From assembly GCA_921293015.1 (NCBI GenBank), contig OV121088.1:31471645-31535644 (forward strand): a stretch of DNA of 64,000 nt, given 5' to 3'. The notes beneath the pieces were generated by a model. The model saw only the letters and a list, made by a program, of their open reading frames with translations, was not told the DNA's origin and made no database searches. This DNA is from Phorcus lineatus. Lineage: Eukaryota; Mollusca; Gastropoda; Trochida; Trochidae. Every line of letters starts with the position of its first letter. The stretch's first letter is position 1. This document shows, in pieces, positions 1-63,516 of this stretch. The position numbers were made by a program, and so were the translations under genes.

Positions 1-628
1 TTTTGATGATCTATTCTAAAAGTTCGTCTAATGTAGTTGACCAGCACGGATTAGTATTTGCCATTTTTAAGAAATCACACCTTAAAGGGGCAGTAGCACG
101 TTTTATGATAAATAAAGTGTATTCACACGTTAAATATTCCTATCATTCACACATAAATCCAATTCGCAATGCTGTTTTTAGGTATGGAAACTATCTATAT
201 AGTTTAACTTTTATGTTAACGTCGGCTATTGAGTTTGAATAACATAACTCACGTAGGTAGTTTAGAACGAACATCTTGACAGTTTTGATCACTTTCAACC
301 AACTAACATTTGATCTGCCAGGCTGGTCTTGGTAGCAAGCACTTCCAAATACACATAACATTTGTTATTTGATTCAACCGTTTTTATGTTTAACAAGATG
401 GCGATTTCACTAGATATAAAGTAGGACGAAAGAAAGATAACATCAAAACCAAGATCGAATCAAAATATGAATATGCAGAATTAATTCATATGTGATAAAA
501 CCCCATGCAGTTATCTAAACTTTGAGATAGTTTTGCAAGACAAAGAAGACATTATTCAAATTATACAATCTATAATTCTATTATCTAGCTGCTTTATTTT
601 TAAAATTTGTTTCTTTTGAAATTTACAC
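1..628. other. AT-rich, no gene seen
   Basis: The only item is a MITE-like end TTAAAGGGGCAGTAGCACG at about 82-100. The 79-codon frame near the start has no protein-like features. Confidence 0.5.
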
Positions 629-654
629 TTACAGTACACCCATAAATAAACATA

Positions 655-812
655 CCCCGTATCTAGAAACACACTAGAAACACACTAGATACGCACTAGA
701 TACGCACTAGAAACTTTCTAGAACGTATCTAGAAACTTTCTAGAACGTATCTAGAAACTTTCTAGAACGTATCTAGAAACTTTCTAGAAATTTCTAGAAA
801 TTTCGAGTTTTC
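655..812 (+). repeat. 22-bp minisatellite with TTCTAGAA motifs (left arm)
   Basis: Perfect TTCTAGAA boxes start at 716, 738, 760, 782 and 792. The first four are exactly 22 bases apart. Distal (left) units are degenerate ACTAGAAAC/ACTAGATACGC versions. Confidence 0.9.
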
Positions 813-3129
813 ACTCTTTTCAAAATATTCAAAAATTATAATCTTAATTAAAATCCTCATGTTTTCTTTGCCTATTGTGAAATTTTGAACAAGATTGCAT
901 CAATAGAAAGAGAGATAATTAATATTGAACTTTAAATCTTCCTCGTTTTAACGCGTCTCTTTCCGCGGCACAAGAAGCAGTCTATTTATAGCGCACGTCC
1001 TTTATTAGCTTCACAGCGATAGGCGTCTTCAAGATGTTCCGACGCATGTAGTTTGGTTTTGTTGTCGTTATATTATAACAATTATATGTAATATAAAACT
1101 TTGCAATAAAGCATTAATAAAAGAAGTAATTATAGTTGACATAACGTATATACATTGCGATTGCCTTTTTATAGATAATTTATGCAAGCTTATGAAGAAA
1201 GAGGCTTTGGGGACATGTATTAATCTGTCACTACATGAATTATATTGTAGTTTAAACATATTTTATTTCATTATATAGCGCTTCTTAACGAATATACTAT
1301 TACATAAAAAGTGACGTATATATGGACGAATGAAGACATACATACAGTAAACAGGACGGAATAGATGCATGATTATGTTGGACACTTTTCAATGAAACAA
1401 TTAATGTTTACAAACTTATTTCATACCGCTGATAACTACATGTTCTTTGATATGTGCAGGGCACATAGGACAACGATTGATGAATTCCGAAAATCTCTTT
1501 GATAAAGTGATAAAATTATTAACAGATTTCAGTAGTCCTTGGTTAACCTCTTGTGATGAGCCCGGGTGACAAAATTGAATTGACGACAGATTAAACCTTT
1601 TTTGAAAGAAATATGCCTTAAGTCTTATGTCATTAACATTTGGACAGGTGATGAAGGAACTTAAGGCGTCTTCAAAGTGATAGCCACTATCACATACAGG
1701 TCTATTAGATATAAATCTAGTGAACCGATCTCTATCAAGATCACTACACCCAACTCGAATATGAAAAGATTATATAATGAAAGAGAATCCTAGTTGTTAT
1801 TACTTCTATGCAATCCTTTTGAAGTCCTAAAGCCTTAAGAAAACTGCTTAACATATGATGTTTTGATCATTCAATACTAAAAGGAAAATGCTGACGCTTA
1901 CCAACTTATAAATGCGAGGTTTTGTAAAAGAAGCATGAAATGCAAGTGTGCTTACAAAAATCGTTTTTTATGCGAAGTAGAACAATCGTTCCTCAATATA
2001 ACATTATCACTTGATGGATAAACATTTTATTACATATAAAAACGGCATCGGAATGGTGAACAAGCTTGTTATATATCAATACATCTCTCAAGACAATGTA
2101 TTGCAAGTGGTCAAATCAAAATAGTGACGTAAATGATGTTAGCTATTACGCTAAATTAATCATGTTTATGTTATGTCAACAACATTAAGGCGTACATATA
2201 TACAAAGTTATCTTTAACATGTTTTAAAGACAGGTGTTATGAAAGGTCTGGTTCAGTGTGTCTTACAACGCTGTGTATAAAATCGCATTTAAGTTAAATA
2301 TTTGTCTGTGAAATTTTAAGGATAATCTTATGATGATACAATCGGAGATTGATTTAAAATTTTCATTATTTCATTACTTTCGACAGGGGATTCACCTCGC
2401 ACGACATGCGTTCCGATATGGGTTTCTGATCATCAATGGATAGGAATCAGAATGACTTGACAAATGATATTTACAAACCTGGTAGTGTCGGTTAACGAAA
2501 TTACCACTCTTACAGAGAAAGGGACACCAACGGTCTGTGCCATCATTAATGATAGATTCACTTCAGTAAAAGTACAATAAAAATTATCTCGTCCTAATGC
2601 TGGATTGATATCGTTATTTTTTTCTCGTCAATTCAGAGTAGATGGATACATAATATTGACATTAAAAGATAATGAAATTAAAATATATAGTTGGATTAAG
2701 ATTGAACATAATGAAAACAGCATACTTTACATTTTGTCATAGATATTATATCATATTCCACCCAGTGATTCAGACACTCTACCCATGCATGAACGAACCG
2801 GTTAAGCTTCATTCAACAATGATGTTATCTAATTAATCAACCAGCCAGCGAGGCATACAGCAATAAAACACAGCTGTCTCGGAATAGGAAATGATAATAA
2901 AGATATTATGTAAGAGATCGCCGACATACTTTATTAATTAAGGATTCCGTCAGGCCGGATTATTGTGATGATTGTGTTTGCACAATAAACAACGTGCATA
3001 TCGGCGTACACGCTTGTGAGAGCTCTAATTAGTGACTCGTCATTAATGAACACACCAAACAATCCTGTGAGTAATAAAATGTGTCAACCAAATTATTTGT
3101 CTGTTATTGGTTTTCTTCACGTTCATGAC

Positions 3130-3213
3130 CATAATATTTCGCGATGTTTTATTATTCGCGCATTATGACTTAACGCGAAAAGCGCGAAAATTAAACCCCC
3201 GCGAAATATTATG
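3130..3213. repeat. Small inverted-repeat element with 14-bp arms
   Basis: CATAATATTTCGCG at 3130-3143 is repeated exactly as reverse complement at 3200-3213. The interior holds further CGCGAAAA motifs. It resembles short GCGAAAAT-type interspersed repeats that I recall from bivalve genomes (recollection, unverified). Confidence 0.6.
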
Positions 3214-3655
3214 ATTTTACAGTACGTAGTTTATAGCACTTCAAGGAAGTTATTTAGTACTTGGAAAGTCTGGTCGAAATAGTAACTGTAATCTCGCTCT
3301 TCTCCTGTGTCATCAGTCAGAGATCGTATAGACATGTGCGGTGGAGCTTGACCTGCTAATGAGCGAGACGAGTTGTGTAACCCCCGGGTAGCAGTAATGT
3401 AGTACAGTCAGTTATTTGTTTCATATCCCTGTCTATACGATACCTGCTTCAGTTGACGAGCTGGAATAAACATTGTCAATACACTTCCTCTCTAAGTCTG
3501 TTTAATTTGTTTATGAGTGTAAGAGGAAAACTTTTAGGTGCCCAGTTAAAAAATAACGTCTTCTCACAACCCGCTTACCGCTCGTTATTGAACTAAGCTT
3601 TTCCCAGTGTTTATATATTCCACCGATCGGCACAAAATCACACAAGTGCAATTCG

Positions 3656-4090
3656 ATGGATCGCCAAACAGTATTTATAACCAAACTTATTAAAACCTGT
3701 CGGAACGTAGATATGTCTAAATTGACAACGTTCTTTAAAAGTAAGAATAATCCCGCGCCTGAATATCAATGTAACCTTCTACCTACAACAACTAACAATA
3801 ACGACAGAGAAAATTCATCTGTTCGAACAGTAAAATGTAGGACAGCGTTAAATGCAAGAACGTTTTTCCTGACACAATAAAACTATGGAATTATTTAACT
3901 CCTGGCAATAAAATTGTTAATTCAAATGAATTAGCTAGATTATCAACTCTCGCCCGCTGTGGTGACTTGAACGCTGATCAGTTAAACAGACATAACATAG
4001 AAAGCCAGACCTGTTCCTGCATGTGGTCACCCAGTCGATAACGCTGTTCACTATTTCTTCACATGCCAAAAGTACGATCCAGGTTACAGG
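3656..4090 (+). pseudogene. LINE (non-LTR retrotransposon) ORF2 tail, decayed
   Basis: The translated plus strand shows the C-terminal part of a jockey/CR1-like reverse-transcriptase protein, broken by frameshifts. A frame at 3656-3867 contains the 'SSVRTVKCRTALNARTFF' stretch. It shifts to FPDTIKLWNYL (3865-3897), the usual FxPxTIxxWN block, and shifts again to CGHPVDNAVHYFFTC at 4022-4066, the Cys/His knuckle near the end of such proteins. The catalytic FADD region is absent, so this is a 5'-truncated fossil. It meets an oppositely oriented LINE fragment at about 4090. Confidence 0.7.
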
Positions 4091-4499
4091 TGACATAATT
4101 ATCTGCTTGCAACACATTCTTAAAACGACGGTAAGTCCGCAATTTGTTACCATTGATCAAACCTTTATCATTCCATAATTCAGCATGCCAACTGTCATTG
4201 TCTAAGAGTAACAACCACTGTTTTGCAGCCTCAAAGTCAACATTTGAGACATTTAAAATATCTACAAGTGGTAAATTCCAATTTGAAATCAAATTGAAAA
4301 CATGATTATACCAGGAAGTTCTAAAATTGCGTGACCATGCATTAATGATTGATACAATGTTACACTGCGACGTTTGTATACGACGCCAGAATCTTAGTAT
4401 TTCGATATTCTGTTTTGTCAGACAAGATGCCCAGCCCATTTCACCACGGACTGTTAGACTGCATATGTAATTGCTTTGAAGTGGCCTTAAAATAAGCAC
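4059..4499 (-). pseudogene. LINE ORF2 post-RT fragment, opposite orientation
   Basis: A 146-codon frame on the minus strand has GEMGWASCLTKQNIEILRFW, then a region ending SWHAELWNDKGL and KLRTYRRFKNVLQADNYV. This order (GE-GW block, then KLRTY-FK-NY block) is typical of the linker between the RT domain and the terminal Cys/His knuckle in mollusc LINEs. It stops where the opposed plus-strand fragment begins, so the two 3' parts face each other. Confidence 0.6.
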
Positions 4500-5739
4500 C
4501 TTGGAGCTTGTTGGACAATCATTTCATGAATTGTACATTTTCATGAATAAAAATGTTTCAATAAAAACAAGCATCTCATCTTCAACACAGTCGATACAGC
4601 TAAAACACTCTCTCATTAAACGAGAAGATTTTCATAACGCTAACGTTGTTTCAAGTGCAACACCGCTTATGATCAAAACTAACGATCGTCTTTATCGCTA
4701 ACGGCTTTTGGATACATATTTCTATGCTGTAGTCTTTCATGACTTTGTTTAGGCAACATTTATCAACTCCCCTGCCACTCACGCTGACACCCTCTGATAT
4801 CGTCCACACCGTTATATGCAACACCATTTGACGCTGGATACACTGAACGGAGTCTTGTCCGTAGTGAACCTACACGGTTATAAGAAAATTATTCATTTGA
4901 TGTATTTGTATGTTTCGATATTAGTAACCGTTTTAAAAATGTCGAAGATAAACATGACAGCTATGAAAGTTCAACAACTGTTCATTCATCGTTCCAAGTA
5001 ACTTTGTATGGTTTGATTTTGTAGAGAGTCAAATACACCGTGCGTTCATTAATTTTGATTTCTTATAGCATTAAAGTAGTGAAAATAGTAACCGTATATG
5101 TATATTTCGAGGCGAGATATAACATTCATATTTATATATAGCGAATTTAATTACTTTGAATATGATAAATGTGTTTAAAACTGTGACCTCTACCGTCCCA
5201 CGGTAATAAATATGTCCCCTTTCGTTGACTGAATTGCGTAACACAGTCGCAGTCGTCTTCAGCAAAAGATGAGCATTCTTCCGTCTATGTCTGGACAGCC
5301 CGGTTGTGTATTGTAGAATACACAGTTAATTCACTTTGAAATTTCGACATGTTCTTTCCAGGTTACGGTTCTCCGTACACTTGCCTGTTCGGGAGATACG
5401 GTTCACTGAGTAAATTGCACGTAAAACAGTAATTATTATTGCAGTTACTCATTCATTTAAAAACCTTTCGTATTTGAAAGAGTGAAAGAGATAGTAAGCC
5501 TTGATAAATCCCGTTAAGCATTTTATGACTTTACATGTTTGTTTTTCGCCATATCTTACACAGTCGAACAAACTTCAACTTAAACTCACAAGTTACATGA
5601 TAGTACTGACGCTATGTCTTGTTGATTTCTTTTTTGGTTAAAGGGGCAAAAAAAATGTTGTTGGGGTCAAGTATGTCAAACTTTATGAATGGTGTTATTT
5701 TTATCGATAAGTAGTGGTGGTTTATGAAATTCAGCATCC

Positions 5740-6900
5740 CGATTTTTACCAGTAAAGTATAGCGACAATAAGAAATTTTCAGTCGTAATGTGTGATAAAA
5801 AAACGGACAATGACTTGCGACATTGAGCAAAACGTTATTTTGGAAACTTAATTACAGCAGACAAAAATACAAATATGGTTTTGTAGTGTTTAATAAGTGT
5901 TGAGTAATGAACATGTAAATGTGACCAAATAGTTTAAACTCTTAAAAATACATTTCCGTTTCCAAATTTAGAAAACAGGAAAACATGTCTTGATTTTGGC
6001 ATTTAGAGATAAAACTGAATGTTTAGGGAGACAATTAGAACCTCACTAAGGACCCATGGTCTTTGAGCTATTATCTGTGTAATATGAAAAATCAGAATGC
6101 ATACTCTGTGTCACTTTAAAATGACTGCAAACTTATAAAACATTCTAATGTTGATTACTAACACCGACGTTACCAGTAAAGCGGTTATACATCTGAATCC
6201 ATTTTTCTACATAAAATCGTAAGGGGAAAAGGAATGTAATTTCTACTTTGTTCCTATCAATACGCAGAATCCATCGACAGTAAATGGATTATCCCTTTGT
6301 TGTTTTCTTACATAATTAAATGCATACAAAAATATGTGAATAGCATAACTTTGCGTACATGTCATTATGACTGAGTTGTTACTAAATTATGATACAAATT
6401 GATATGTATCTTTGGACATAAAATACCGTTATCGTTGAAAACATTATTGATTTATAACATTTTAATTATGATTGTGTATAAGGTTTCAATCAGCAACTCG
6501 GGAGTTTACGGTTTAAGGGAATCTTGGAGGATACCTCCTCAGTTTTTAATCAAATTAGGAAACGGTTATTAAACGGGTACATGTTATCAATGTCAGATGG
6601 AAATTAATTAAGTTTTCTCTCTCTTCGTGCTTATGAGTTCAGTATAGTGACAATAAAACAGGTTAAAGTCTCGGTTGGTGTTCGAAAACCGGACAGTGAC
6701 GCGCGTCAATGACTCAAACGTGATTTTTAAAACCTATTTACATCAAGCACAAATGTAAATATTGATTGGCAGGATTAATTAGGACTTTTAACTGGTACAC
6801 ATGTAAAATGTATGCAGATTTTCGACGTCCTTACATTTATATGGCCGTTTTTCATGTATCAATGAAAAATAAAAATAGCAAAATTTGGGAATTTGGGAGA
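5740..6900. repeat. Diverged internal duplication
   Basis: The stretch from about 5750 (AGTATAGCGACAATAA ... CGGACAATGAC ... AAACG) resembles that from about 6640 (AGTATAGTGACAATAA ... CGGACAGTGAC ... AAACG) in the same order. Limits are approximate. Confidence 0.45.
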
Positions 6901-8433
6901 TTTACTGCATTCATAGAATATGAACACCTCAAATATGATGTACTTAAAACAGCGAAATATATTGTTCGCTATTTAGACTAGTTTGATCATTTATAAAAGT
7001 TTACACATAAATATATAGTTTTCATACTAAAGATCAATTGTTTTATCCAAATGTATGTTGTTCCAATCCGTTACTACTCAGTATTACTAACAAACATGTA
7101 CAGCATGGAGGAAATCTAATATACCGTCTCTCAAGAAAAAGTTTATGAAGCAAACACAGTTCTGGAATAAAAATATTTTAAACCTTTAAACCATACCATG
7201 GATAATGAAACAATTCTACATTATTTTGATCGAATATTGAATATGTTGTCACAGTGTTTCACTACTCAGTATATAAACATACACCTTGGAGAATTACTGT
7301 GACGCTCTACTCACTGTGTGAGTGGACATCGGCATGGCTCTTATAATTATGTTGTCAGATAATACGACGCGACAAGGATGAGCGTACCTTCATCTTCCAC
7401 AAATTAAAAGATACTTCCTAAGATTATCCGCAGAAAGACATGCACATAATTTGTTTGAACAAATTAGTAACGGTGTTTCAACAGTCTGAATATAGTTCGA
7501 GTTTACTATTGTCAGGCCCAAAGCATTGTAGTCGTACATGTATAGTAAGCGCGCACACTATAAAAAAAGATGACGGCGAGGGAAAATAAAAGCTTAAGAC
7601 AAACTAGAACAGCGACAAGTTGATGTGACCGACGACAATTGCTTAGTTAAAACTGCGAATGCTTTCATGATTGAATAAAACGTCAAAAGCGCATGCTTGC
7701 TTACACCTAGAAAACCCTTTTTTCTCAACATTCCGATAAGTCATTATAACGTGTAAATGATGCCTTCATATTTTCATGTAGAGACAGAGAACTAACTCTC
7801 ACAATCTTTTCATTTCCTGAAAAGCAAGCAGAGGTTCTTTGCATTAGTCAATCCCCCTATAACCAATTCAATTATAATATGTAAGTCTTTGAAGAAACGA
7901 GGGTATTTTTTATTTGCATTTTTACTTCAAATATGTCCTTATTAAACCAACAAGAATGGGTTTTTTTTTTATCTCATTCACCTATTTATTTAAAACGTTT
8001 CTTTGCACTTATGTTAAGTTTACAGATTGAATATTACGAACTGAGAGAGAAACGTAATTTACTAATTCCTTTTGCATATAAGAAAGATCAATGCATTTGA
8101 CGTACATGAAATAAAAATAGAAGACTTAGATAGATAGTACGTACGTTTTCTCTGAGGTGATAAAGGGCTTTGATTATAAACCTAATCAAAACCATTTTGA
8201 AGGCAAAGCTGTACGCTGACTTAAGTTGTTGACCAGACGCGTTACAGCTCATTAGCGCGTAAGCAATGCGTAGCGTTATAATGAGGATGCGTTGTAGAGG
8301 AGGGAAACTTTAACATTGAATATCTTCTTTCCTAATTAACACAAGCAGTTCATCTTTTCAAATTGTGCAAAAGATAACATAATGTTTCAGAAAAAAATAA
8401 AATTATTTGAATATCTCTCAAAAAATAAAAACT

Positions 8434-8580
8434 CGAAATTTCTAGAAATTTCTAGAAAGTTTCTAGATACGTTCTAGAAAGTTTCTAGAAAGTTTCTAGA
8501 TCCGTTCTAGAAAGTTTCTAGATCCGTTCTAGAAAGTTTCTAGATACGTTCTAGATACGTTCTAGAAATTTCTAGAAAGG
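8434..8580 (-). repeat. 22-bp minisatellite with TTCTAGAA motifs (right arm)
   Basis: Reverse-complement counterpart of the left array. Perfect TTCTAGAA boxes start at 8440, 8450, 8472, 8483, 8505, 8527, 8560 and 8570. Spacings are 10, 22, 11, 22, 22, 33 and 10, near multiples of 11. Confidence 0.9.
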
Positions 8581-8608
8581 GGGTAGTTTGTTTATGGTTG
8601 TAGTGTAA

Positions 8609-9447
8609 GAATTTTGTTAAGCCTTCCCCTCATCAACAGCTTTATGATTTATGAACGAATTATGAATTAAAAGAAAATAAACAATCTTTTAAGATTTAAC
8701 ATCAAATATCCAATGTAAACAGAGCTTATTTTGATTAAAAAGTTGTTATCTTGATTAAACTCGCTTATCTTTACAAATCATCATTAGAAAACGAAAAATT
8801 GTTTTGTTCAGAGGTAGTTAATAAGTTCATAGTCGGTAGACAACTGTTCAGTAGTGAACAATTACATAGTGAATAGAACTTTGTTATACGTACTGAACAA
8901 TTATATATTGAATGGATATCTGTGATATGTAATAACAGAAAATGATTATTGTACAAGAGTATATGTCTTTATCATTATTACGAAGATGAAATAAGATCAA
9001 AAGAAAATTATTTCTAATACTGGATATATTGAATTCACTACTCTTCTAATAACATTTTATTACATTATGGTACTGTCATTAATGAGTGTATTTCATAGGA
9101 AGCATAATTTGTTGTTTGATATCTCTACAAATAATGAAAACCATATTGACACTATAACAATGCTTCTTGTGACAGGCACATTTGTTGAAATGGTCTCGCG
9201 GTATAAAAGCCCAAAGGCACAGTGGTGATACGTGTTTGCACAGCATAAATGTCCTCCATATTTGCAGTAATTAGGTAACAATAGAAATAAGTTTTGTTCT
9301 AGTAAGTGTGGTCATTGGCTATTTTCTATTACTTAGGTACTTATATATGTTTGATTGCATTGTCACACCCTCAACATCCAACATAGAAAATAAAAATATG
9401 TTTTTTAATTCTCACGTTGGTAATTACGTCTTGCTGTACACACCCAT
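8609..9447. other. AT-rich, no gene supported
   Basis: Intronic or intergenic sequence. A short minus-strand frame near 9180-9281 has several cysteines but does not fit neurophysin spacing. Confidence 0.5.
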
Positions 9448-9541
9448 CTTCCTACGCAAAGCTTAACTACTGCCAGTCTCGAACTGTCCAAGTTAACTTG
9501 GACAGTTCGAGACTGGCAGTAGTTAAGCTTTGCGTAGGAAG
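9448..9541. repeat. Perfect 94-bp palindrome (47-bp arms, no loop)
   Basis: The bases 9448-9494 are the exact reverse complement of 9495-9541, centred on AGTTAACT. Checked base by base; no mismatch was found. Confidence 0.95.
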
Positions 9542-9590
9542 TTAACTTGGACAGTTCGAGACTGGCAATAGTTAAGCTTTGCGTAGGAAG
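9541..9590 (+). repeat. Third copy of the palindrome arm in tandem
   Basis: This repeats the right arm (9492-9540) at a 49-base period with a single difference (GGCAGT to GGCAAT). The GAAGATGG that follows also mirrors the CCATCTTC at 9444-9451 before the left arm. Confidence 0.9.
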
Positions 9591-10841
9591 ATGGTACACA
9601 CCCTGTACATGAATAGTATATTTACATTTAAAATAAAAGACTTATGATATTTGATTTAATTTGTTAACATTGTATTTCTATCTAAGCCAATTCGATGGGA
9701 TACACTGAATTCTGAATATTTAAGAGGCGAGATGAAAATGGCAAATAGAGTGATACAAAATGTGAATAAATCACTGACAATTAGTTATGTCTCCAAGCGT
9801 TTCCTTGAACTGGAAACCGGTAAGAATATCAATTTAAATTTGGCTGAAAAGAAATGACCAGTTTTCAAAGATGTGATGACTCAGCATTGAGTGATGACAG
9901 ATTCTATTTTCATGGTTGATTTGTTCTTACTGAAGAGAGAAAATTGACATACCAACCTTTTTCTTTCCATCGTTAAGCTAACAAAGGCTTCCTTTACAGC
10001 ATTTCAACTAGCGTTGAGGAAAGGACAAGTTTAGAATTTGATGATAGATCAACTGTTTATAAAGTAAATGCCAATTTTATATAACTCGACAACTCAATTT
10101 CAGCACTCATATTCTCACTGCATCTTCATGAGTGATATTTCGGAAATATATCTTCATATTTATTACAGGCTTATCTTAATGTTAGAATAGGTCATTATCA
10201 GGGAATGAAGAATGCTTGAAAGACCATTGGTTTTATTCTTTAAAAGTGCAGACAAAAACATCAAAATCAAAAGTGCCGAGCCGAAATATAAAAGTTGCCT
10301 AATTAAAATATTTAAAATTGCCACTCATAAAGGTCATTCTGGTAAAACAAAAGTCATAATAGTAAAAAAAAACAGTCGTCAAAATGATGACATAAACATT
10401 GGAAGTTTAAAATTGTACACAAAATAAATGTTGAATCAGATATAGAATTTGTGAAAATGGGTTGAAAAAAATTTTGATGAAGAAATTCGTTTTCATGAAT
10501 GAACCAATTCTGTCTGGTTTCCATTACATTGCTTTATTTCTTATGAATATATTTTCTTCTAAATTGACAAACACTTTCATGTTATTTCTTGAGATCCAAC
10601 GACAACGGTATGATTTGCAAAGTTAGCCACACTCTTTATTCTCGATTACATTCTCTAGAAGGCAACGTTTTACATAAAAACCCAAAAGAAGGATATAATT
10701 AGGGCTGATATTATGTATGAGAGTGAGTTCACTGAGACTGATTTCTGCTTGACATTTATCATGACCGACTGAAAGAATTTTTCCAAAGTCAAGTTTAACA
10801 TCCTATAGGATTCTGTACCTAGTTACTGCATCCCCTTGCTA

Positions 10842-11176
10842 TTGAGGGGCAGTAACACGTTTTTGAAAATTTATTTCTAAAATTTTCCTTCATAAAAATC
10901 AGTTTATGCCAATGTATTAATAATCAGAGGTTAAAAATAGTATTTCTCAAACTTATGAAAATGTATAAAAAATAAACACTAGCCGCCATTTCAGTGTGAA
11001 CATCTTTTAATCTTTTACGTTGGTAAAAACAGATTCGCATAGCTTAACTAAACATGGTATGGTCGTCAGAGAACTGCTTCTTTTATTTAAAAACGATTGT
11101 CTTGCAATCGGTAGAATCAATTTTCGTTTCTGTGAGATCACTTTGTTTACCTAAAAACGTGCTACTGGCACTTTAA
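10842..11176. mobile_element. Candidate 335-bp MITE
   Basis: Imperfect terminal inverted repeats of about 23 bases: TTGAGGGGCAGTAACACG at the left, TTAAAGTGCCAGTAGCACG read inward from the right, both followed by TTTTT. Similar single ends (TTAAAGG-GCAGTAGCACG) occur near 81-105 and, more diverged, near 46118. There is no coding capacity. TTAA-like outer bases are seen but no clear target duplication. Confidence 0.4.
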
Positions 11177-12067
11177 AGAAAAAATAAGTCACCAAGAGTG
11201 TAGATGTTTATATGTTTTTTGAATTTATATCTTATCCAAAACTTAAACATTTGTGATATGAATGTACAACCTATTAACAAGGCATATCAATTTCATGATC
11301 GAACGATATTAAATTACATTTGACGTTTTGTTAAAGAAGCGATCCTGTGTCTCGGAAGACACAATTGAATTCCTTATCACTCCGTGAAACACTTATATAT
11401 GATACTTGACATTGTTAACATCAAATCTTTGCTCAATTCCACCTTCGATGATATGAGCTACTTATGTACCGTCTTCTGGTGAGTTATGTAGCTAAAACAA
11501 ACATTTGGTGACTTTAACCGTTTACATGCACTCATGTATTACACTAATTGCGTTTTAATCTAGAAATCTTCATCTAACCAAAAAAACATATTATCTTAAT
11601 AGAAAATAAATAACAATAATAAAACATCGTAAGTCTTAATACAACTAAGAAAACCAAACGGATTGTTGTCAGATTCTGATTGAAACTGTATCAATAAAAC
11701 GTTTAAAATTATCTTTGTATCCTGTCATGATCATTAAAGTAGTTAAAACATATTCCAAATAATCAACTTTCTCCTACATATATGTAAATAGTGATTTCCC
11801 ATTTGTCTTCTCTTTGTTATAAAAACGTAAAAACGCTGATTCCTAAACAGCAATCAATATACTATGCTGTATGTATATGAAAAATGACAAATGTCTGTAA
11901 AAGGGACTCTAATGACATTAACATCATGGCTTTTCAGAACCCGAAAATCCTTATATAACGACCACCTGAGGAATAGCGTTCAATTGTGTAGCTGTAACTA
12001 CGTTGATAATTTGACTAAATATTACCAAGTTTACACTACGCAGGTATATAAACCAAACATCGTTGTA

Positions 12068-12378
12068 TCAACACAATGTTAACGAATGTTTATCAGAGAT
12101 AATATAAGAGATATCACTTTGAGGCTCTAACAGGGCTTGGCATTTGTTCGAGGGCTCTTTCTTACGAAATCTCTTCCTCGGAAATGAAATACTGTTAACT
12201 GCAATGCCTAGATCTTCTGTCATACTTGACCTCAGGTCTTTCATGTTCCGAAATACGTGATCTTCCGGGAAACGAATGAATAACGTTAGAAACTTGATAA
12301 CATGAATGCATAGTAAGAGTCGGCCAGTACTTGCCACTTCACGTTGATAGAGGTTTAAAGTATCTTCATATAACTCGT
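12068..12378 (-). other. Unassigned open frame with protein-like composition
   Basis: The minus strand is open from about 12378 to a TGA at 12068-12070, starting YELYEDTLNLYQREVASTG and including FPRKRFRKKEPSNKCQ and a C-terminal SDKHSLTLC. Codon use looks coding (mixed GC third positions) compared with the AT-rich surroundings. It lies about 1 kb downstream of the neuropeptide exon on the same strand, inside its presumed first intron. It has no neurophysin cysteine pattern, so it is not the next exon of that gene. I do not recognise the family. It could be a terminal exon of another gene, a transposon remnant or chance. Confidence 0.25.
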
Positions 12379-13346
12379 ATCATTAGGTTTTAGCATGGTT
12401 TGAGTAAGTAAAAAGTGAACTCAATCCCAAAGATTTACAGAAAGTGTATAAAATAAGGAAAATGCAAACTGGAAGTAAGTTTGGTATGTGTGCATTGCGC
12501 AAGAATTACTATCATGTATTTTTGGCCTACCTTTGTCATGAAGACAATCGAAACCAGCAACAATAGTGCAGTATTTTTGCAAACTTTGAAAATAATATAT
12601 TACAAGCAATTAAGAACATCGAAATCATTTTAGTGGCAAAGCTGTTCGGTAAGAGTTACTTTTGGACTATTTTGAGGCAGCTAATAATGAACAGAACTTT
12701 ATTAACCTTAAGGTCCTAATCCTATAGGAAACACTTTTGGGGACGTCCCTTAAAAACACATAATCAAAAGAAAAGAGAAGGATAGCAAAACATTATAATC
12801 TAAGGCACATATGCAGTCTAACCATTCAGCTACGAATGTTTAGGCGAATATAACGGCTATTGGTTAACCAAGTTGTTTTAAAAGTCAGTTACTGTAGCAC
12901 ATATTTCAGTTTGAAATTACTACTTGTTCAAGATGCACAGTGGCTTAGATAACTAGATTCAAGATAGATTTTCACTTAAAACACGCAAATATGTACAAGT
13001 TCAGCCTTGCTTCAACTTTTCAATGCAATTATTTGAAGTCGGATATCTGATATCACATGAATCGCGTTGTCCAATCTGATGGCACATAACTATCATAACA
13101 CTATACAAGTTGAGTTCAACAAATACCCACAAATAAGTGTCATTATGGTAAACATGCAATATAAAAACAGGCTCGCCTGGACATGCTTCTGAAAAGTTCT
13201 CTATTGCTTATATTACTGAAAACTTCACAAAGTGCATATTTACATAACCTAGGGGTCAAAACCAAGAACTAAGCTTTCGCCAGGTTGACATCCGATACCC
13301 TCTCTAACTACGTGAGATATAGGGGTATAAGGCAGGGTGAACTCAC

Positions 13347-13490
13347 CTCACGTTGATTGTCCGATTTCATATCAAGGCCCCTTTTTCCACCCGGTGGACA
13401 ATTTCGGATAAAACAGCCCAAGGTGCCGGGTAAAACACAGACAAACACTACGACAAGAGCGAAACCTTTCACACACCCGGCGGCCATCAT
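13347..13490 (-). CDS. Exon 1 of an oxytocin/vasopressin (conopressin-type) neuropeptide precursor
   Basis: This exon encodes the start of a secreted neuropeptide precursor. Seen directly: 48 codons from a double Met; a hydrophobic signal peptide at residues 1-25 (core FALVVVFVCVL, likely cut after Gly25); the nonapeptide CFIRNCPPG at residues 26-34, with Cys26-Cys31 able to form the ring disulfide; Gly35 as amide donor; KR at 36-37 for prohormone convertase; then 11 residues (GLDMKSDNQRE). The minus strand continues with GTGAGT (plus 13341-13346), so the exon ends GAG|GTGAGT in phase 0. Known of the family: precursors are signal-hormone-GKR-neurophysin, and vertebrate intron 1 lies just before the first neurophysin Cys, which fits here. 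The first Met is taken as start; the second would serve equally well. The neurophysin exons were not found towards lower coordinates, so they are probably outside the window. The peptide would act as a circulating or synaptic hormone on GPCRs. The family call is secure; the species ortholog name is not. Confidence 0.93.
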
Positions 13491-13588
13491 TTCGGAGTTG
13501 TAAGAAGAAAGTTTTTGCTCTGTCGTTGGCCTTTAATCCCGCCGGTTGTTCTGCTTTTCGATCAATAACTGCGATTTGATCCTCCGCG

Positions 13589-13595
13589 TTTTATG
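13589..13595 (-). promoter_or_regulatory. Candidate TATA-like box of the neuropeptide gene
   Basis: The minus strand reads CATAAAA here, about 100 bases upstream of the start codon. Transcription would then begin near 13560-13565 with a 5' UTR of roughly 70 bases. A CACGTG E-box lies just upstream at 13615-13620. The local base composition is clearly more GC-rich (13330-13720) than the flanks, as expected of a promoter and first exon. The position is inferred from spacing only. Confidence 0.4.
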
Positions 13596-13720
13596 TACGC
13601 GCTTGACGCTATATCACGTGACTCTTACAACATCGTGTGGTGAAATCGTGGAGGGTGATAAGGGGGATACTAAATCCGCCCACGGTGAGGGGTGTTCTGG
13701 GTTTGAGAAGGTTTGAGATG

Positions 13721-19376: not shown

Positions 19377-20214
19377 TTTTAGCTGAAGGGTGCGATAAGT
19401 TTATGGCTTGGCTTCCGTCCGTCCGTCCGTTCGTCTGTCTGTAAACTTTTCACTATTTCAACTTCTTCTCCAGAACCAGTGACTTTAGAAATCTGAAATC
19501 TTGTGTAGAGACTCCTTGACTAATGAGATGTTTGATTTAAAGATATGGTGTTCCTGTGGCCCTTGAATAAGGACCTAAGGGGCCATGGCCTAAAAAAAAC
19601 TTTTTTCACCTCCTCCCCAGAAGCAAAAGGCCTAGAAAATTGAACCTTTTATACAGACTCCTTAGCTCTAATCTATAGAATTGGTGACCTTTGACCTCTA
19701 AATGGGGCCACAAGGGCCAAGCCCTAAAAACCTATTTAAATTCTTCTTTTCCAGACCCAAGAGAAAGCTGAAACCTTGTGAACAGGATTCTTAGCTGAAG
19801 GGGATTCGAAATCTTAAAATGGTTTATCCTTATTTGACGATCCTGTCAAACCTAATAGGAGCACATCCTATACCTTGTTTGGTCATTTTTCCAAAGAAAA
19901 AGGCCTAGAAAGCTAGAATCTTGTGTACAAACTCTCTTTAGTGGATGGTTATTTTAATTTATAAATTTGGTGACCCTGTGACACCTCATTAGGGCCTCAG
20001 GGGCTACATTATTTTTCCCTTTATTCCTTAGCTGAATGAAAATATGAGTTTTGAATTTAATTTAAGTGACGCTGTGACCTCTGGTAAACTTAACTGATCA
20101 TATCTTTGGTGTTTTTTTTACAAAAAGGAAATTCCTAGAATTCTTAAATCTTGTGTACAGTCTTGTAAAATTATAGATAGCCTGATGAGCTACATAGCCA
20201 ATGGCTGTATTTTA
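19377..20214 (+). mobile_element. Degraded pearl-like non-autonomous element
   Basis: It begins TTTTAGCTGAAGGG, carries a GTCCGTCC tract (19414-19440), then several diverged ~120-150-bp units ('CTTCTCCAGAACC...', 'ACTCCTTAGCT', 'GGTGACC'), and ends CTGATGAGCTACATAGCC..ATGGCTGTATTTTA. The same start, microsatellite, tandem core and end order is found at 27511-28620, where the copy is much better preserved. Confidence 0.65.
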
Positions 20215-27510: not shown

Positions 27511-28620
27511 TTTTAGCTCATCAGGTCTGAAAGACCAGATGGGCTTATGGCATGGCAAGGCGTCCGGCGTCCGTCCATCCGTCCGTCCATCCGTCCATCC
27601 GTCCGTCCATCCGTCCATCCGTAAACTTTTCACTTTTTCGACTTCTTCTCCAGAACCAATGACTCTAGAGAGCTGAAATTTTATGTGCATACTCCTTGGC
27701 AAATGGGAATTCTAAATTGTAGATTTCGTGACCCCATGACCCCAAATGGGGTCACAAGGGTCAAAAACTTAAAAATCTATTTTAATCTTCATCTCCAGTT
27801 CCAAAAGGTCCAGAGAGCTGAAAAGTTGTGTGTAGACTCCTTGGGAACTGGAGATTCTAAATTGTAGGTTTGGTGACCCCATGACCCCAAATGGGGTCAC
27901 AAGGGTCAAAACTTAAAAAACCTAATTTAATCTTTTTCCCTAGTTCCAAAAGGTCCAGAGAGCTGAATAGTTGTTTGTAGACTCCTTGGGCACTGGAGAT
28001 TCTAAATTGTAGGTTTGGTGACCCCATGACCCCAAATGGGGTCACAGGGGTCAAAACCTGAAAAACCTAATTTCATCTTCTTCTCCAGTTCCAAAAGGTC
28101 TAGAGAGCTGAAAAGGTGTGTGTAGACTCCTTGGCCAACGGGGATTCTAAATTGTAGGTTTGGTGACCCCATGACCCCAAATGGGGTCACAGGGGTCAAA
28201 ACCTAAAAAACCTAATTTAATCTTTTTCCCTAGTTCCAAAAGGTCTAGAGAGCTGAAAAATTGTGTGAAGACTCCTTGGACACCGGGAATTCTAAATTGT
28301 AGGTTTGGTGACCACTTGACCCCAAATGGGGTCACAGGGGTCAAAACCTTAAAATCCTACTTTCATCTTCTTCTCCAGTTCGAAAAGGTCTTGATAGCTT
28401 AATAGTTGTGTGTAGACTCCTTGGACAATGGGGATTCTGAATTGTAGGTTCGGTGACCCCTTGACCCCAAATGGGCAATGGGCCTTTTTTATTTGATTGT
28501 GAATAACTCGGACGTTGGGACAGGCTATCTTTCCTACACTGCCCATGACCCCATGGTCTAAACCACAACACCTATTTCTATCAAAAGTCTGATGAGCTAC
28601 AGAGCCCATGGCTCTATTTT
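27511..28620 (+). mobile_element. Pearl-like element with a 145-bp tandem core
   Basis: It starts TTTTAGCTCATCAGG with a short hairpin (AGCTCATC..GGTCT / AGACC..GATG.GCT), then a (GTCC/ATCC)n tract at 27569-27622, then tandem units, and ends CTGATGAGCTACAGAGCC..ATGGCTCTATTTT with a second hairpin. There are no intact ORFs of its own. The order subterminal hairpin, microsatellite, ~150-bp tandem core matches the 'pearl' elements described in oysters and ark clams, thought to be non-autonomous Helentrons; that link is by architecture only. Confidence 0.7.
27640..28490 (+). repeat. Tandem array, exact 145-bp period
   Basis: GTGACC at the head of the conserved palindromic block starts at 27728, 27873, 28018, 28163, 28308 and 28453, each exactly 145 bases apart. 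The block itself (GTGACCCC...GGGGTCAC) can form a hairpin. Short minus-strand frames of about 65 codons recur at the same period and are by-products of the repeat. Confidence 0.95.
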
Positions 28621-36790: not shown

Positions 36791-37860
36791 CAGTTGCATG
36801 CCAGGTTTGTTCACATACCTGAATATACTAGTGCAAATATCATGTAGTTTGAGATACCTTTGCCAAAGCACGTGCAGCATGGGATCATGAAGGTTTACAT
36901 GCAGACATGTCTGCTTTGACATGTCTGCTTTAGGGGTATAAAAAGCCATATAAGCCGCTGTTCATTCAGACTACACAACATCGGTACAGCGACCTGAAGA
37001 ATGCCAAGACTGAACAGAGCGCAACGCAACAACGCTATTAGCGGACTGCAAGCAGGAGCGACGCAGCGAGATGTTGCAACACACTTTGGCGTGTCCAGAC
37101 AGACAATTTCCGTCCAAACGGTCCGCAACAGGCTGAGAGAGGCTGGATTTTTTCCACGACGACCGGTTCGACGTCCCATTTTAACGTAACGTCATCTGGC
37201 GGAACGTCTCCAGTGGTGTCAACAGAGGATGAGATGGGCAGGTGGAGAACCGTTCTCTTCACTGATGAGTCCCGTTTCTGCTTCGACGAAGTGATGGACG
37301 AGCACGTGTATACCGACGTCGTGGAGAACGTTATGATGCCAACTGTGTTCAGGAGGTTGTCCCATTTGGAGGTGGGACTGTCATGGTGTGGGCCGGTATT
37401 CGTCACGGTGTAAGGACACCCCTTGTGCATGTTGTGGGTAACCTCACAGGAGTACGGTATAGGGACTTGATCCTACAGCCTTCCTCACGTCAACGTCCAT
37501 AGTGGTCTCTTTCAGCAGGACAATGCTCGACCACATGTTGCACGTGTTTGTCAAGACTTTTTACAGCGTAACAATGTCCAGACATTGCCATGGCCAGCCA
37601 GGTCACCAGATTTGTCACCAATTGAGCATCTCTAGGACGAACTGGATCGACGCGTGCGCAGTAGGAATCCACCACCCCAAACACTTCCAGGTCTTCTTGC
37701 AGCACTTCAGCACGAATGGCAGAACATTTCACAGGCTGTGATTGACAATTTGATTGCATCCATGGGTCGTCGGTGCCAAGCAATAATCAATGCCAATAGT
37801 GTTGAAACACTTGTGCACCTGTGCACTAACATCATGCTTATTCTGAATAAAATTTACTGA
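36791..37860 (+). mobile_element. Tc1-like transposon remnant with left terminal repeat
   Basis: A TA dinucleotide (36789-36790) precedes CAGTTGCATGCC and about 60 bases resembling the terminal repeats of the 45.2-kb MITE. The transposase pseudogene follows. No matching right terminal repeat was recognised after 37860, so the right end is probably lost. Confidence 0.65.
37001..37859 (+). pseudogene. Tc1-like DDE transposase, internally deleted and broken
   Basis: The product would cut and paste DNA at TA sites. Seen: Met at 37001 and an N-terminal helix-turn-helix (GATQRDVATHFGVSRQTIS). The next residues are VQTVRNRLREAG, which in this family lie well downstream, so a short internal block appears deleted in frame. 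A TAA follows at PILT. The first catalytic Asp box FTDESRF (37258-37278) is in another frame, the second box QQDNARPH is at 37513-37536, and the third PIEHL is followed by a stop in place of Trp (near 37633). The C-terminal frame ends at TGA 37858-37860. At least two frameshifts and two stops make it inactive. Confidence 0.9.
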
Positions 37861-49439: not shown

Positions 49440-49650
49440 GATATAGCCTGGAAACAAAAGCATATCGAAATTACGTAATTAGGGATGGCAGCAAAAACTT
49501 GTGTCTCTCGCAAAGCTTTGCGTCTTGCCCTAATAATACTGCTCCGAAGTATCTGGCTGATTTAGTCACAAGAAGTCATAGATCTGAACCTCTTGGTCAT
49601 CTTGCTCTCTCACATTTGAAGTTTTTTCAGAGGTTGCTTCATCTTCACTA
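49440..49650 (+). pseudogene. Possible LINE fragment
   Basis: The frame contains NNTAPKYLADLVTRSHRSEP, resembling the 'N.LAP.Y..DL' block found in the RT C-terminal region of jockey/CR1-like elements. No other RT motif is seen nearby. Its right edge overlaps the start of landmark A copy 3. Confidence 0.3.
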
Positions 49651-49850
49651 ACCACCTCTGCTACTCAGGGTACAACATGGGGTGGATTGATAACTTTGAT
49701 AAGCCACCTGTGAGATTTACATCATGGAATATCTGTTCTAGTCAAGAGGTCAGCAAACAATAAATAAAATCCCACATGATCTGTATAAAAATTGGATAAA
49801 GCCTTCGTGTCAGTGTCCATGAAACAATGTGTTGCTACTTTTATCTCTTT
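49634..49850 (+). repeat. Duplicated-unit landmark A, copy 3
   Basis: Matches copy 2 over about 200 bases with mostly point differences. Confidence 0.75.
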
Positions 49851-50844
49851 GCTTCGTTCCTCGAGTCAATGGGATATTGATAATTGGAGACACGTATTAC
49901 AAATCGAACTTTTGAACCAGCAATGCATTTTGTTAATCCAATGTAATAAGAATTAAGTTTTGGAGGTATCTCATGTTTTCTTAACAGCACTAGTGCACAC
50001 CGATATTTCGTATATACAACAATTGCACAGATCATGCATGTCTCTCGATTTTACTTACGACCCACACTCAGATACTCTAGCTCGTAAGTTATTTAACAAA
50101 TATTAACGTTTTCAGGTTATAAAGTTGATTTTTAAGACCGGAAGCATTTAATGCAACGTTGTATTGAATTAGCATATTCATATTCAAAATTGGCTTACAG
50201 CCAGAAAAGCGAAAACGGCAGCCGCTATCGTAATTCAAAAACAATGCTTATAGCAAATTTATCAAATTGGCTGAATTACAAGGTTCCTATACAGCATTTT
50301 TTAAATTACAAGATTGCTTTAATAACAATGTTTCATCCTTTATTCTCAATATCTTAAACCGGCTGTTTTAGCTTTTTCATCTTTGATTACAGGTGAAATG
50401 TAAACGATAAAATTACCATTTCATTGCAACGGTAGAAAAACTGAAGTGAGTGCCAACAACCTAATATGCCTTGAAATAGCCAATTTGAACCGAAAAAGCG
50501 TGCAACAGTGCAACATCATCGGCATTCTCCCAACAGAAATTTATTTACAACATACGCGATCGTTTCTCGTGTACACGCCGGATTGCATGCAACCAAAGTT
50601 GTGCAATCATGATCAGCGACGCCGTTTCAAAGATATTATTCTAAACTCCTCAGTTATTTTTTTATGCTTTCGCAAAGCTTAACAAAGACCCACAGACATC
50701 TATTTTGTTTCCCAATTGGTCGAAATGTCATGAAATTTTGATATTCACATTGACGGTCATCCAGACATTGATTTGTCTTTTGTACTTTTGGTGGTTGTGA
50801 ATAACCTAAATAGCCTCCTCTGTTGTTCATATGGCCTAAGAATC

Positions 50845-51200
50845 TTAAATGGAGAGATCAAGTTGAGACCAAGAGAGCATCAATGGTGACCATTCATTCA
50901 TTGGTACTAGATGCATGATTGTAAGATTAATGTTTATGTTAAAATGAGATGTAAAAAAACACGAGTAACATAGTAATTGCTTGAATAAATACAATATGAC
51001 ATATGAACAATATGAAAATCAAACTAACGTGCGACATACAAGTACATGACTGTTGCTGTTATTTGAATACAGTCGTCTTTAAATCTTCCAGTGATAAACC
51101 TGCCAATGGTTCGTGTTTTGAAACATGTTATTTGAAGAGGAATTCAGATATGATGACTTATTGCACTTCATAATAACAGATGTAATTTAGAGACGTTGAT
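50845..51200 (+). repeat. Duplicated-unit landmark C, copy 2
   Basis: Partner of 43466-43830; listed blocks recur in the same order and spacing. Confidence 0.75.
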
Positions 51201-51353
51201 GTTTGATAGTTATAAGTGTAGTTTATGTTTGGGACATTGATTCAATGGCAAAAATAAAAAATAATCACAAGTGATATCAAGTGCTGCCTCAGAAAAATGT
51301 TGGAAATAAATGTTATCATTAACGATGATGACGTTTTGATTTATTTTTATATT

Positions 51354-51405
51354 TATCATCATTATTACAAATATCATCATCTTCATCATCATCATCATCA
51401 TCATG
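51354..51405. repeat. (ATC)n microsatellite
   Basis: ATCATC triplets with TTC and ATT interruptions, about 0.45 kb before landmark E copy 4. Confidence 0.95.
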
Positions 51406-51837
51406 ATTGTAATGAAATGAAGGACGATTTCGTGACCTTTCACTCTGAATTATTCATCAGGTTTTGGAGCAACATTGTTTTCACCTCCCTTTGATTGAAA
51501 AAAAAGAAGGAGATTATCTTAACAACTGATTTATTTGTAACATATACACCTGTATAGGATGCAGCCTGAAGAAGAATGTTTTCTATATTTTTTTTATCAT
51601 GATTACAATCGTTTTAAATGCATTTTTAAAATATTTTTATTTATATTATTTTTTTTATAAGTATTAAGTGTTATTCAAGCGTCCTTTTCTTACATATTGG
51701 TAATATAAAAATACACGATCATAATAACAGATTTCGAAATTTATTTCTTTTTACAATTTAAATATTTGTAGGAGCATTTTCATTTATCTCTGAATAGTTG
51801 TTGGAAGGGCATGCCGGTAAAATGACAATAAATCAAA

Positions 51838-52060
51838 AGTCTTGGAGTTTTGAACAAACCATCTATTGACACCTAATTACATACTACGTTCTAGAAACTT
51901 AAATGCAGACGCTATTGTGATGCAAGACTACAGTTCAATAGTTAATGGTTAAAGTACGAGCATTAATTTTTAAGAGTCTCTGTCTGGAAACGTTTGTCCT
52001 AAAATAAATATCAGCGTCGTTAAAACGATATAAGTGCTCAAAAGTTGTATTAATACTTAT
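51838..52060 (+). repeat. Duplicated-unit landmark E, copy 4
   Basis: CTTGGAGTTTTGAACAAACC onwards matches 48500-48720 through AAGTGCTC. Confidence 0.7.
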
Positions 52061-52671
52061 GCAATAATTTTCCCCTTTGAAGAAATTGTTTGGGGCTAAT
52101 TTCACAAATATTCTTTTAAATAAGCTTTAACTGAGGTTTCCTATGATCACCTCGGTTTTTAATGAAAGCCGGCCAAGAAGCCTACAACTGATAAAAAATG
52201 ATGTTCCTTTACCATATGGCTCACGAGATGATTATTAGCGACGTGTTATCTAGCAGTTATATCGGTAATATTTTAGAAATTGATATACATAAATGGATAT
52301 GATATGTATAAAATAGATCAACTGTCACTTTAAAAAACCTGGACCGTATGGTGATTTTACCCCTTACGAAGCATGCAACGTACGAGAGAAATTGGCGAAA
52401 GTTTGTCTTTCAGCAGCTTATGGAAGTTGTGCTAATAGCATGGGAGAAAAAAAGACCTCATATATATTGACATTTTATTTAGGTTTTCTTTATCAATATC
52501 AACATAGTTTATTTTTATTTTGCAAATTTGACTCCCAATTATAAAGAATGAGGGATTTATGTTGTACCAAGTGATCGTGATTATCAGTTAATGCTTTAAA
52601 CACTCTGAACTTGGGTCAATGACACAGCATTGTTGTTTTCAGGATAATTCTACTTCTATCATTAATACCTG

Positions 52672-52733
52672 CTACTACTGCTGCTTCTACTACTACTACT
52701 ACTACTACTTATAATGACAACACTACTAAAACA

Positions 52734-52775
<42 letters not shown>

Positions 52776-52955
52776 GCTACTACTGCTACTACTACTACTA
52801 CTACTACTACTTATAATGACAACACTACTACAACAACAACAACTACTACTACTACTACTGCTACTACTACTACTACTACTACTGCTACTACTACTACTAC
52901 TACTACTGCTGCTGCTTCTACTACTACTACTACTACTACTACTGCTACTAATAGA
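52672..52955. repeat. (CTA)n microsatellite
   Basis: About 280 bases of CTA triplets with GCTACT, AACAAC and two ATAATGACAACACTACTA inserts. Both strands stay open (poly-Leu, poly-Ser), which has no coding meaning. Confidence 0.97.
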
Positions 52956-53035
52956 GGATACTAAACGACCTTCCATTTAATACTATTTTTATTAAACGAG
53001 TTAATGATTAAGTATAAAACGAGCGAAAGCGAGGG

Positions 53036-53600
53036 GAATGACCTTGACCCGAGAACATCGGATCAACAGATTGAGGTAGGCTCGCACTGTACATCGCTGG
53101 CAAAGACGAAACTGGTACGAAGTGCAATTTACCGACTAGAGTAGGTTTTAGGTGTTTAGTGCTGACGGCCGCTTGCGGCATACCGACGCAGAAGTGAACG
53201 TACGTCAGGTTCCTGCGTTCAAGAGATGCAACCCCACTGCAGTGGCAGTGTCATGATTTGGAGCGGTATTTGTGGATACACCAAGAGCGACCTAGTGGTA
53301 ATTAATTGTACTCTCAACGCTAACAACCATATCAACCAGGTCCTGCAGAACAATCCAAGAACGCTGCTTCAACAGGATAACGCCACCCCACACAAGAGAC
53401 TTTTTCAATGCCAACAACATGCATATCCGATCCCCTGACCTGAATCCAGTTAAACACCTCTTGGACCACCTCTTGCACAGATGCTGACGTATGCACTGCT
53501 AGAAGAGTAGCGCCAAATCACCCATGTCATCCTTAGGAGACTGATTACGCCTGTACGACGTCGTGTCAGGGAGTACACACTCGATATTGACATTTTAATG
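53036..53600 (+). pseudogene. Second Tc1-like transposase, degraded
   Basis: Encodes the catalytic half of a Tc1-type DDE transposase. LTREHRINRLR leads to a first box FTD*SRF with a stop in the motif (53128-53148). After frameshifts a frame at 53226-53438 carries SGSVMIWSGI and the second Asp box QQDNATPH (53370-53393). The third region reads RSPDLNPVKHLLDHL (53427 on), where the usual catalytic Glu after Pro-Ile/Val is Lys. The N-terminal HTH half and recognisable terminal repeats are missing. It is a different lineage from the 37-kb copy. Confidence 0.85.
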
Positions 53601-53729
53601 TGACTCTCTACTTCGTAAGAGTGTACGTCAGATTAACTTTGGTTAAGTTCATAATAATTTTTTATGAGCACTCTTGCGATAAATAAGTCAGACATTTATT
53701 GTTGCAGTTGTTTTTTGAAAATTGCTGAT

Positions 53730-54410
53730 TTCATGTGGTGGTCACTAAAATATATAAAGGTATGCACTTTTAAATTTGCTTTTAGTAAAGTATAAGTCAA
53801 CCATTTGGTTAAATCACTGATGAGACAAGTCAGGTGCCGAAATCCTAGCACGGGTTTAAATATTTTCTTCAAATCTTCGATCGTATGTATAATTAACAAA
53901 ATGACTTACCACTTTTTTTCTTAACATATATGAAATATAACTCGTCTTACGTCACCCCTCAAACGATCGTTAGCAATAAACACGTCTGGAGCGAAAGTTA
54001 TAGCATCTACGTCAGGAACACTTAAATATGATAAGTATATAAAAATATGATATAAGATATAAAATAAAACTTCCCTTTATGTCTAAATTATATTAATATA
54101 TTGTGTGAAACATTTGCTTGATTTCAATAAGGTAATACAATACGAAATCAATCGATAAATTGACGAAAGAGGAATGAACTTTAATAGTTTTTACCCACAT
54201 AAACCCTAAGTGTTCGTTGTTTCATGAATAAGCAGAAAAAGGCACACAGCTTGCCTTAAAGGAGCCGTAGTTAATGTTCGTTCAAATATATCTTTTTGCT
54301 GTACTTTAAGGCATATGATGATATGTAAGATTTTATCGATGCAAACATGTTATTGTTTTAATCACAATTGGCTAACGTTCAGAGTCTTTAAGAGCCATCA
54401 TCAGACTTCA
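53730..54410 (+). repeat. Paralogous segment F/G, copy 2 (empty-site copy)
   Basis: Partner of 44960-46260. It preserves the unoccupied TA at 53927-53928 where the MITE sits in the other copy. Confidence 0.8.
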
Positions 54411-55144
54411 ATACAGCTGTAGAGGAGTACCACTGGGAGCCCGGACCAGTTTTAAACAATTATTAGCGTAATATTTCATAAACCGTTGCAACTAGAGCGT
54501 TCACGTTTTGCCACTAGACTCCAATAGGTGGGATTCACCTGTCGATTTAGGAGAACTTGACCGCATTTTTAAGGTCACTTCGACACTTTGACCAGTTTTT
54601 GAATTTTTTATATATGTATCTGTTTGTTTCTGTTTTCTTTTGATACCAAAAATTTATTTACGTGTACTTGTTCTCGGTGTATTTAGGTTACATTGATGTG
54701 ATATTCTTTTTTTGTTTTCTTCATACTTAACGTATTTTAGGAAAAAGATACCCAATTTTTTAGGGTACGTGGTAACTTTGAAATTCAACATTGAAATTAT
54801 TGCAAGAGCAACCCCACAGCTTTTGCTGTATGCTATCTAAGTGTTGAGTGCCTTTTAAATATAAGAATAATTACGAATCAAACGTGAAAAGCTTCCTACT
54901 TTGCAGAAATTCTTAAGTGTGCCATCATTTATTGATTGTGATGGGAGACAGTGTCACGTTTGATGCAAATACGTGTTGTAAATACATTTTATACCTACAA
55001 ACTTTTACTTTCGATGAATTTGTCATTGACATTTTAACATGCATATCATAACTTGATAATTGTAATTTCATGTTTATGCGAACTATATCAGTTTATTAAC
55101 TTAACTTAACTTTACTGAACACACCCATAATTGAGAAAACGATA

Positions 55145-55335
55145 AATTGTAGGGATTAATAACTTTGATAAGGCACCTGATATCGCGAAATATCTGTTTT
55201 AGTCAAGCGTTCAGCAAACAAGGAATAATTTCCCACACGATTTGTGTAAAGATTGGATAAATCCTTGGTGTCGGTGTGGATGAAAGAATGTGCTGCTTCC
55301 TTGTATTGATAAATCGTTATCCTGTTACGACTCAT
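55145..55335 (+). repeat. Duplicated-unit landmark A, copy 4
   Basis: ATAACTTTGATAAGGCACCTG ... TATCTGTTTTAGTCAAG ... TTCAGCAAACAAGGAATAAT ... CCTTGGTGTCGGTGTG. Closest to copy 2. Confidence 0.7.
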
Positions 55336-57763: not shown

Positions 57764-57814
57764 TCATCGGAGTGGTGCACGGTTGTCATAGACACACTGT
57801 CCTTCAACACACCA
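57764..57814 (-). CDS. Exon-like segment, ADAM/ADAMTS cysteine-rich 'WC..G.CV' motif
   Basis: After a good acceptor on the minus strand (TTTTTGTTTCCAG), the frame reads WCVEGQCVYDNRAP and two more codons, then TGA at 57764-57766. The Trp-Cys-x-x-Gly-x-Cys-Val motif is the end of the ADAM/ADAMTS cysteine-rich region. It normally follows a 'DGTxC..GK' stretch, which I could not locate between this segment and the 61.9-kb one. The family usually continues for many residues; here the frame closes after 16 codons. Either a donor lies inside the segment (for example near the CCGTGCAC), or this is a truncated terminal exon, or the copy is decayed. The acceptor and the first ten or so exon bases are present twice in tandem (57805-57934). 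Strand and order agree with the 61.9-kb segment. Confidence 0.55.
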   Translation of the reverse strand, partial: WCVEGQCVYDNRAPLR

Positions 57815-57934
57815 CTGGAAACAAAAAGATAAGAAAAATTGAAATTCATTGAGATTCTTGTCCCAAACACAACACACCACTGGAAACAAAAAGATAAGAA
57901 AAATTGAAATTCATTGAAATCCTTGTCCTAAATA
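57805..57934. repeat. Two-copy 65-bp tandem duplication covering a splice acceptor
   Basis: Copies at 57805-57869 and 57870-57934 are almost identical. Each carries, on the minus strand, the pyrimidine tract, the CAG acceptor and the first bases of the WC-motif exon. Only the copy at lower coordinates runs into the full coding segment. Confidence 0.9.
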
Positions 57935-63290: not shown

Positions 63291-63516
63291 TGAAGCCACA
63301 AACCAATTTTCGTCATCCTATTTAAAGCGAAATCTGTCCCATTTAATTCGCATGGACGCACCCACCAATAGTTAAGGAATGTTGACAATATGTTCATCTG
63401 TCTACTTACAGTAGATTCATCTTCATGGAATCAATGGAACACTGCGAGAAGTAGAAGCCGTTCTGTACAAGAGGAGACAGAGCTGACATTATGTAACCAT
63501 CGTTCGCATTGCAGGA

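Follow-up and report, generated by a model that had tools for sequence, protein, structure and literature searches.

A predicted vasopressin/oxytocin-type (conopressin) gene of three exons, apparently intact and single-copy, with a 39.8-kb first intron

The closest described precursors include those of the pearl oyster Pinctada fucata and the Pacific oyster Crassostrea gigas, in which conopressin, CFIRNCPPG-NH2, is reported to follow the signal peptide directly and to be succeeded by a 14-cysteine neurophysin and then an uncleaved copeptin-like region, with a Q/P polymorphism at position 8 of the C. gigas peptide (PMC4200219). The nonapeptide CFIRNCPPG has also been given for the Yesso scallop, Mizuhopecten/Patinopecten yessoensis (PMC5996578; PMC7181382, citing GenBank OWF51696.1), and the Lys-conopressin of Lymnaea stagnalis is given as CFIRNCPKG (PMC7181382). 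Gene structure has been described for more distant members, with the octopus octopressin and cephalotocin genes reported as single coding exons (PMC7181382) and the deuterostome vasopressin/oxytocin genes analysed in a sea cucumber paper having three exons, divided by a phase 0 and then a phase 1 intron (PMC10532012). Intron lengths quoted for vertebrate genes of the family run from 75 bp to 5.57 kb (PMC2656470, PMC2315648). As to function, the related Lymnaea peptide is described as triggering contractions of the vas deferens and inhibiting the caudodorsal cells, which govern egg laying, and the 2020 review describing these effects states that, to its authors' knowledge, the function of the peptide in bivalves was unknown (PMC7181382). 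For Saccostrea echinata, a 2025 oyster transcriptome paper counts conopressin among the neuropeptides and describes higher levels of mesotocin and oxytocin receptors in male gonads at the pre-spawn stage (PMC12564202).

We analysed a stretch of 64,000 nucleotides (the window, C13:31471645-31535644) together with its own genome (957.8 Mb, 74 contigs). A segment on the minus strand of the window, read as sequence, is almost certainly the first coding exon of a vasopressin/oxytocin-type (conopressin) gene that has three exons and is apparently intact and present as a single copy. From 13490 to 13347 the minus strand encodes MMAAGCVKGFALVVVFVCVLPGTLG-CFIRNCPPG-GKR-GLDMKSDNQRE, followed by GTGAGT, and the exon (13347..13490; C13:31485134-31484991; 144 bases) holds 48 codons and ends in phase 0. 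The start ATG lies at 13490, where there are two tandem ATGs, of which the second has A at -3 and G at +4. A predicted N-terminal signal peptide of 25 residues (13416..13490, minus strand) has a hydrophobic core with a top 9-residue mean Kyte-Doolittle value of 3.77, hydrophobicity being the basis of the assignment, and from the position of the nonapeptide it is probably cut after ...TLG. The nonapeptide CFIRNCPPG (13389..13415), identical to the published bivalve peptides, follows directly, with Cys1-Cys6 and CPxG in place, and its mature form is presumably amidated. Directly after it come GKR, an amidation glycine with a dibasic cleavage site (13380..13388), and the first 11 residues of the neurophysin part, GLDMKSDNQRE (13347..13379), which exon 2 continues with a Cys. 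Intron 1 begins with the phase 0 splice donor GTGAGT (13341..13346), also on the minus strand.

The elements named in the original prediction (signal peptide, CFIRNCPPG and GKR) were all present on the minus strand at the predicted positions, and it was exact in counting 11 residues between KR and the donor. The donor that it called perfect is fully consensus on the intron side (6/6 bases), but the base at -3 is G rather than A or C, so that GAG/GTGAGT matches 8/9 overall; the sole 9/9 MAG/GTRAGT site counted in the window, on the minus strand, therefore lies elsewhere. Under a first-order Markov model of the window, both strands included, 4.4e-8 copies of CFIRNCPPG and 3.7e-12 copies of CFIRNCPPGGKR would be expected by chance, and for a looser family motif that includes the amidation and dibasic sites the window model gave 1e-5.

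The region upstream of the exon (13491..13700, minus strand) is a probable promoter and 5' UTR, as suggested by a GC-rich patch and several motifs. GC content was 48.5% across 13301-13700, which takes in exon 1 and the adjoining upstream bases, a value reached by about 1.3% of 400-base windows. The CpG observed/expected ratio of the same patch was 1.11, compared to 0.84 for the window as a whole, with 20% of windows equally high; taken alone this ratio is unremarkable. The motifs CATAAA (13595), CGTCA (13608) and CACGTG (13620) may act as promoter elements.

Searched alone, exon 1 gave no Pfam match at E<=10 and just three unrelated PDB chains (E 0.32-1.1), as expected of a 47-residue query. 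No neurophysin was detected by regular expressions in six frames across the whole window, or by Pfam in the three minus-strand frames of 1-13500. A piece of human neurophysin served as a positive control and was recognised by the same Pfam scan (E 3.4e-25), so the absence of neurophysin inside the window is believable. Across the genome (958 Mb), the neurophysin profile PF00184 gave one match at E<=0.1, at C13:31444947-31445159 on the minus strand, with 78.8 bits against a cut-off of 27.2 (5/5 candidates scored). A human neurophysin query led to this one locus alone at E<=1, with 50% identity to exon 2. This places exon 2 about 26.5 kb past the window edge, on the minus strand of the flanking contig, where the original prediction had proposed to look; its author could not see the other two exons because these are about 40 kb distant and fall beyond the window.

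Exon 2 (C13:31445156-31444949, 208 bases) has the acceptor TTTTTGTTTCAG/TGC and the donor TTCGG/GTTAGT, and exon 3 (C13:31444246-31444140, 107 bases) has the acceptor TTTTTTCAG/AGGC and the stop codon at its end. The three coding exons lie in order on one strand, the minus, of one contig, with canonical GT-AG splice sites. They are separated by intron 1 (C13:31445157-31484990; 39,834 bases), which is in phase 0 and precedes the first neurophysin Cys, and by intron 2 (702 bases), in phase 1 near the end of the neurophysin. The splice had been forecast to fall just before that Cys, and exon 2 does open TTTCAG/TGC in phase 0, on the same strand and contig and 39,834 bases farther downstream; with exons 2 and 3 joining in frame, the claim of a real gene exon as opposed to a chance frame was borne out. 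The coding sequence of 459 bases yields 152 residues with no internal stop and with 14 cysteines after GKR, and the gene is intact at the sequence level. The first downstream AATAAA occurs about 467 bases beyond the stop codon. No N was present in the eight fetched loci or in the window part of intron 1, which comprises its first 13,346 bases (1..13346, minus strand), gave no neurophysin match in three frames, and runs on to exon 2.

The 152-residue product matched PF00184, the 14-cysteine neurophysin domain, over profile positions 1-79 of 79 (E 7.9e-23). From CFIRNCPPG onward it matched neurophysin II (PDB 1npo, E 6.2e-20) across residues 20-102 of the query, and the cysteines line up. We take PDB 1npo, 1l5c, 2hnu and others to be mammalian neurophysins I and II, and the cysteine framework of these, together with the CGPGG...C.GP.ICCG core, is in register with the product here, which has two extra residues in its second half. 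The precursor tail, at the end of exon 3, is LMQLVQQLLRSKNYD, short and leucine-rich and ending SKNYD; judged by eye, it resembles the leucine-rich core of copeptin. The string FIRNCPPGGKR was not found in the full-text literature, where precursor sequences often appear in figures.

Exon 1 had a single match in its own genome at E<=0.001, with 100% identity (E 5.7e-27). This exon might be an orphan or decayed duplicate, with another first exon serving the working precursor; in favour of that stand the 39.8 kb that separate it from exon 2 and a linkage of the exons that is drawn from sequence. We consider this very unlikely: nothing is broken in the frame, start, signal peptide, amidation site or donor, and the genome searches gave one exon-1 and one neurophysin match, on the same strand and in the right order, with agreeing phases. 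A second copy was not seen in the genome, in searches whose counts for repeats and large families are lower bounds. More improbable still is a venom or secretory-gland peptide like the cone snail conopressins in place of a neurohormone; related peptides have indeed been purified from cone snail venom (PMC7181382), but the peptide here is identical to those in the bivalve reports and the genome search reported a single exon-1 match. An open frame that by chance resembles an oxytocin-type peptide has only its shortness (74 residues stop to stop) to recommend it and is hardly credible, given the expectation for CFIRNCPPGGKR above and the correctly placed neurophysin exon with its matching phase, and exons 2 and 3 rule it out.

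For the conopressin gene, the biology of the family suggests how the product would be made and used. The precursor would enter the secretory pathway and lose its signal peptide, and the neurophysin would bind the nonapeptide and aid its sorting into granules. A proprotein convertase would cut after KR, a carboxypeptidase would trim KR, and PAM would convert the glycine into the C-terminal amide, which with a Cys1-Cys6 disulfide would give cyclic CFIRNCPPG-NH2. The target of this peptide, once released by neurons, would be a vasopressin/oxytocin-type G-protein-coupled receptor, with probable roles in reproduction and in the control of smooth muscle. The pre-spawn gonad receptor data reported for S. 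echinata (PMC12564202) fit a reproductive role, without testing it.

The gene itself is ordinary, with nothing novel about it except perhaps the long first intron, its sole unusual feature, which may be normal for bivalves. From the length of this 39.8-kb intron one might suppose a lineage-specific regulatory region within it, setting the place and time of expression of the hormone gene, an idea we regard as doubtful. Beyond the window, one minus-strand frame of each of three intron 1 loci was compared with Pfam and gave one weak match below the cut-off (DUF3915, E 0.012).

Exon 1 had been described as the only segment of the 64 kb that is confidently coding, and this did not hold, as two exons of an ADAMTS-like metalloprotease gene, identified from their sequence, are also found in the window. 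Detected by the Pfam scan and by a scan for the pattern WC..G.C, they lie at 60460-60579 (120 bases, flanked by TTCCAG and GTAGTC) and at 57764-57814 (starting at 57814, with the stop codon ending at 57764), both on the minus strand. The first of these, searched alone, scored 26.2 bits against ADAMTS_CR_2 (PF17771; E 1.1e-5), just below the cut-off of 27.3, and had no PDB match at E<=10. Joined, the two exons reached 42.6 bits against PF17771 (E 8.1e-11), above the cut-off, and matched ADAMTS13 in the PDB (E 0.0029). They are consecutive and in frame, with canonical splice sites, and the gene shares the strand of the hormone gene and lies about 44 kb upstream of it. A 65-base tandem duplication was also observed at 57805-57932, which repeats the acceptor and opening codons of the last ADAMTS-like exon. 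The same WCV start is therefore preceded by two acceptors (exon starts 57879 and 57814), with only the downstream one running directly to the WCVEGQC... end.

The window was also called repeat-rich, a description that we checked in part: 27 tandem-repeat rows were recorded, and 8.5% of the window was similar to another part of it. A tandem array with a 145-base unit in 5.8 copies occupies 27642-28475, and the stretches 19414-19741 and 27594-27931 share 70% identity. The part of the window with the highest GC content holds the remains of a Tc-type transposase (36902-37600, plus strand; PF01498 HTH_Tnp_Tc3_2, E 9.3e-12), and a fragment at about 62470-62592 on the minus strand matched the reverse transcriptase zinc-binding domain PF13966 with 27.7 bits (cut-off 27.5). 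No tRNA was found in the window by ARAGORN with the bacterial code, and no Rfam family reached its gathering score. The Pfam scan covered the whole window in three frames on the minus strand, in overlapping pieces, and on the plus strand 49601-64000 and 36900-37600 in three frames plus three single open frames; with this partial plus-strand coverage, plus-strand genes in 1-49600 could have escaped.

A lone exon spotted by a reader in raw sequence has thus been confirmed as part of a true gene. Full coding-exon coordinates can now be given for a vasopressin/oxytocin-type gene that appears to be single-copy and whose intron phases are those reported from deuterostomes, and the gene model should be useful for expression and knock-down work. 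Compared over the nonapeptide, the peptide here is identical to those reported for the pearl oyster, the Pacific oyster and the Yesso scallop, while the peptide given for Lymnaea stagnalis, of the same family, differs at one residue, with Lys at position 8 there and Pro here. Going by the published peptide sequences, the source would be a mollusc, most likely a bivalve. The octopus octopressin and cephalotocin genes belong to the same family and are reported with a single coding exon, in contrast to the three found here. Both intron phases agree with those of the deuterostome genes analysed (PMC10532012). The first intron is much longer than in mammalian genes and, at 39.8 kb, far exceeds the quoted introns of the family, in a comparison drawn with vertebrate genes only.
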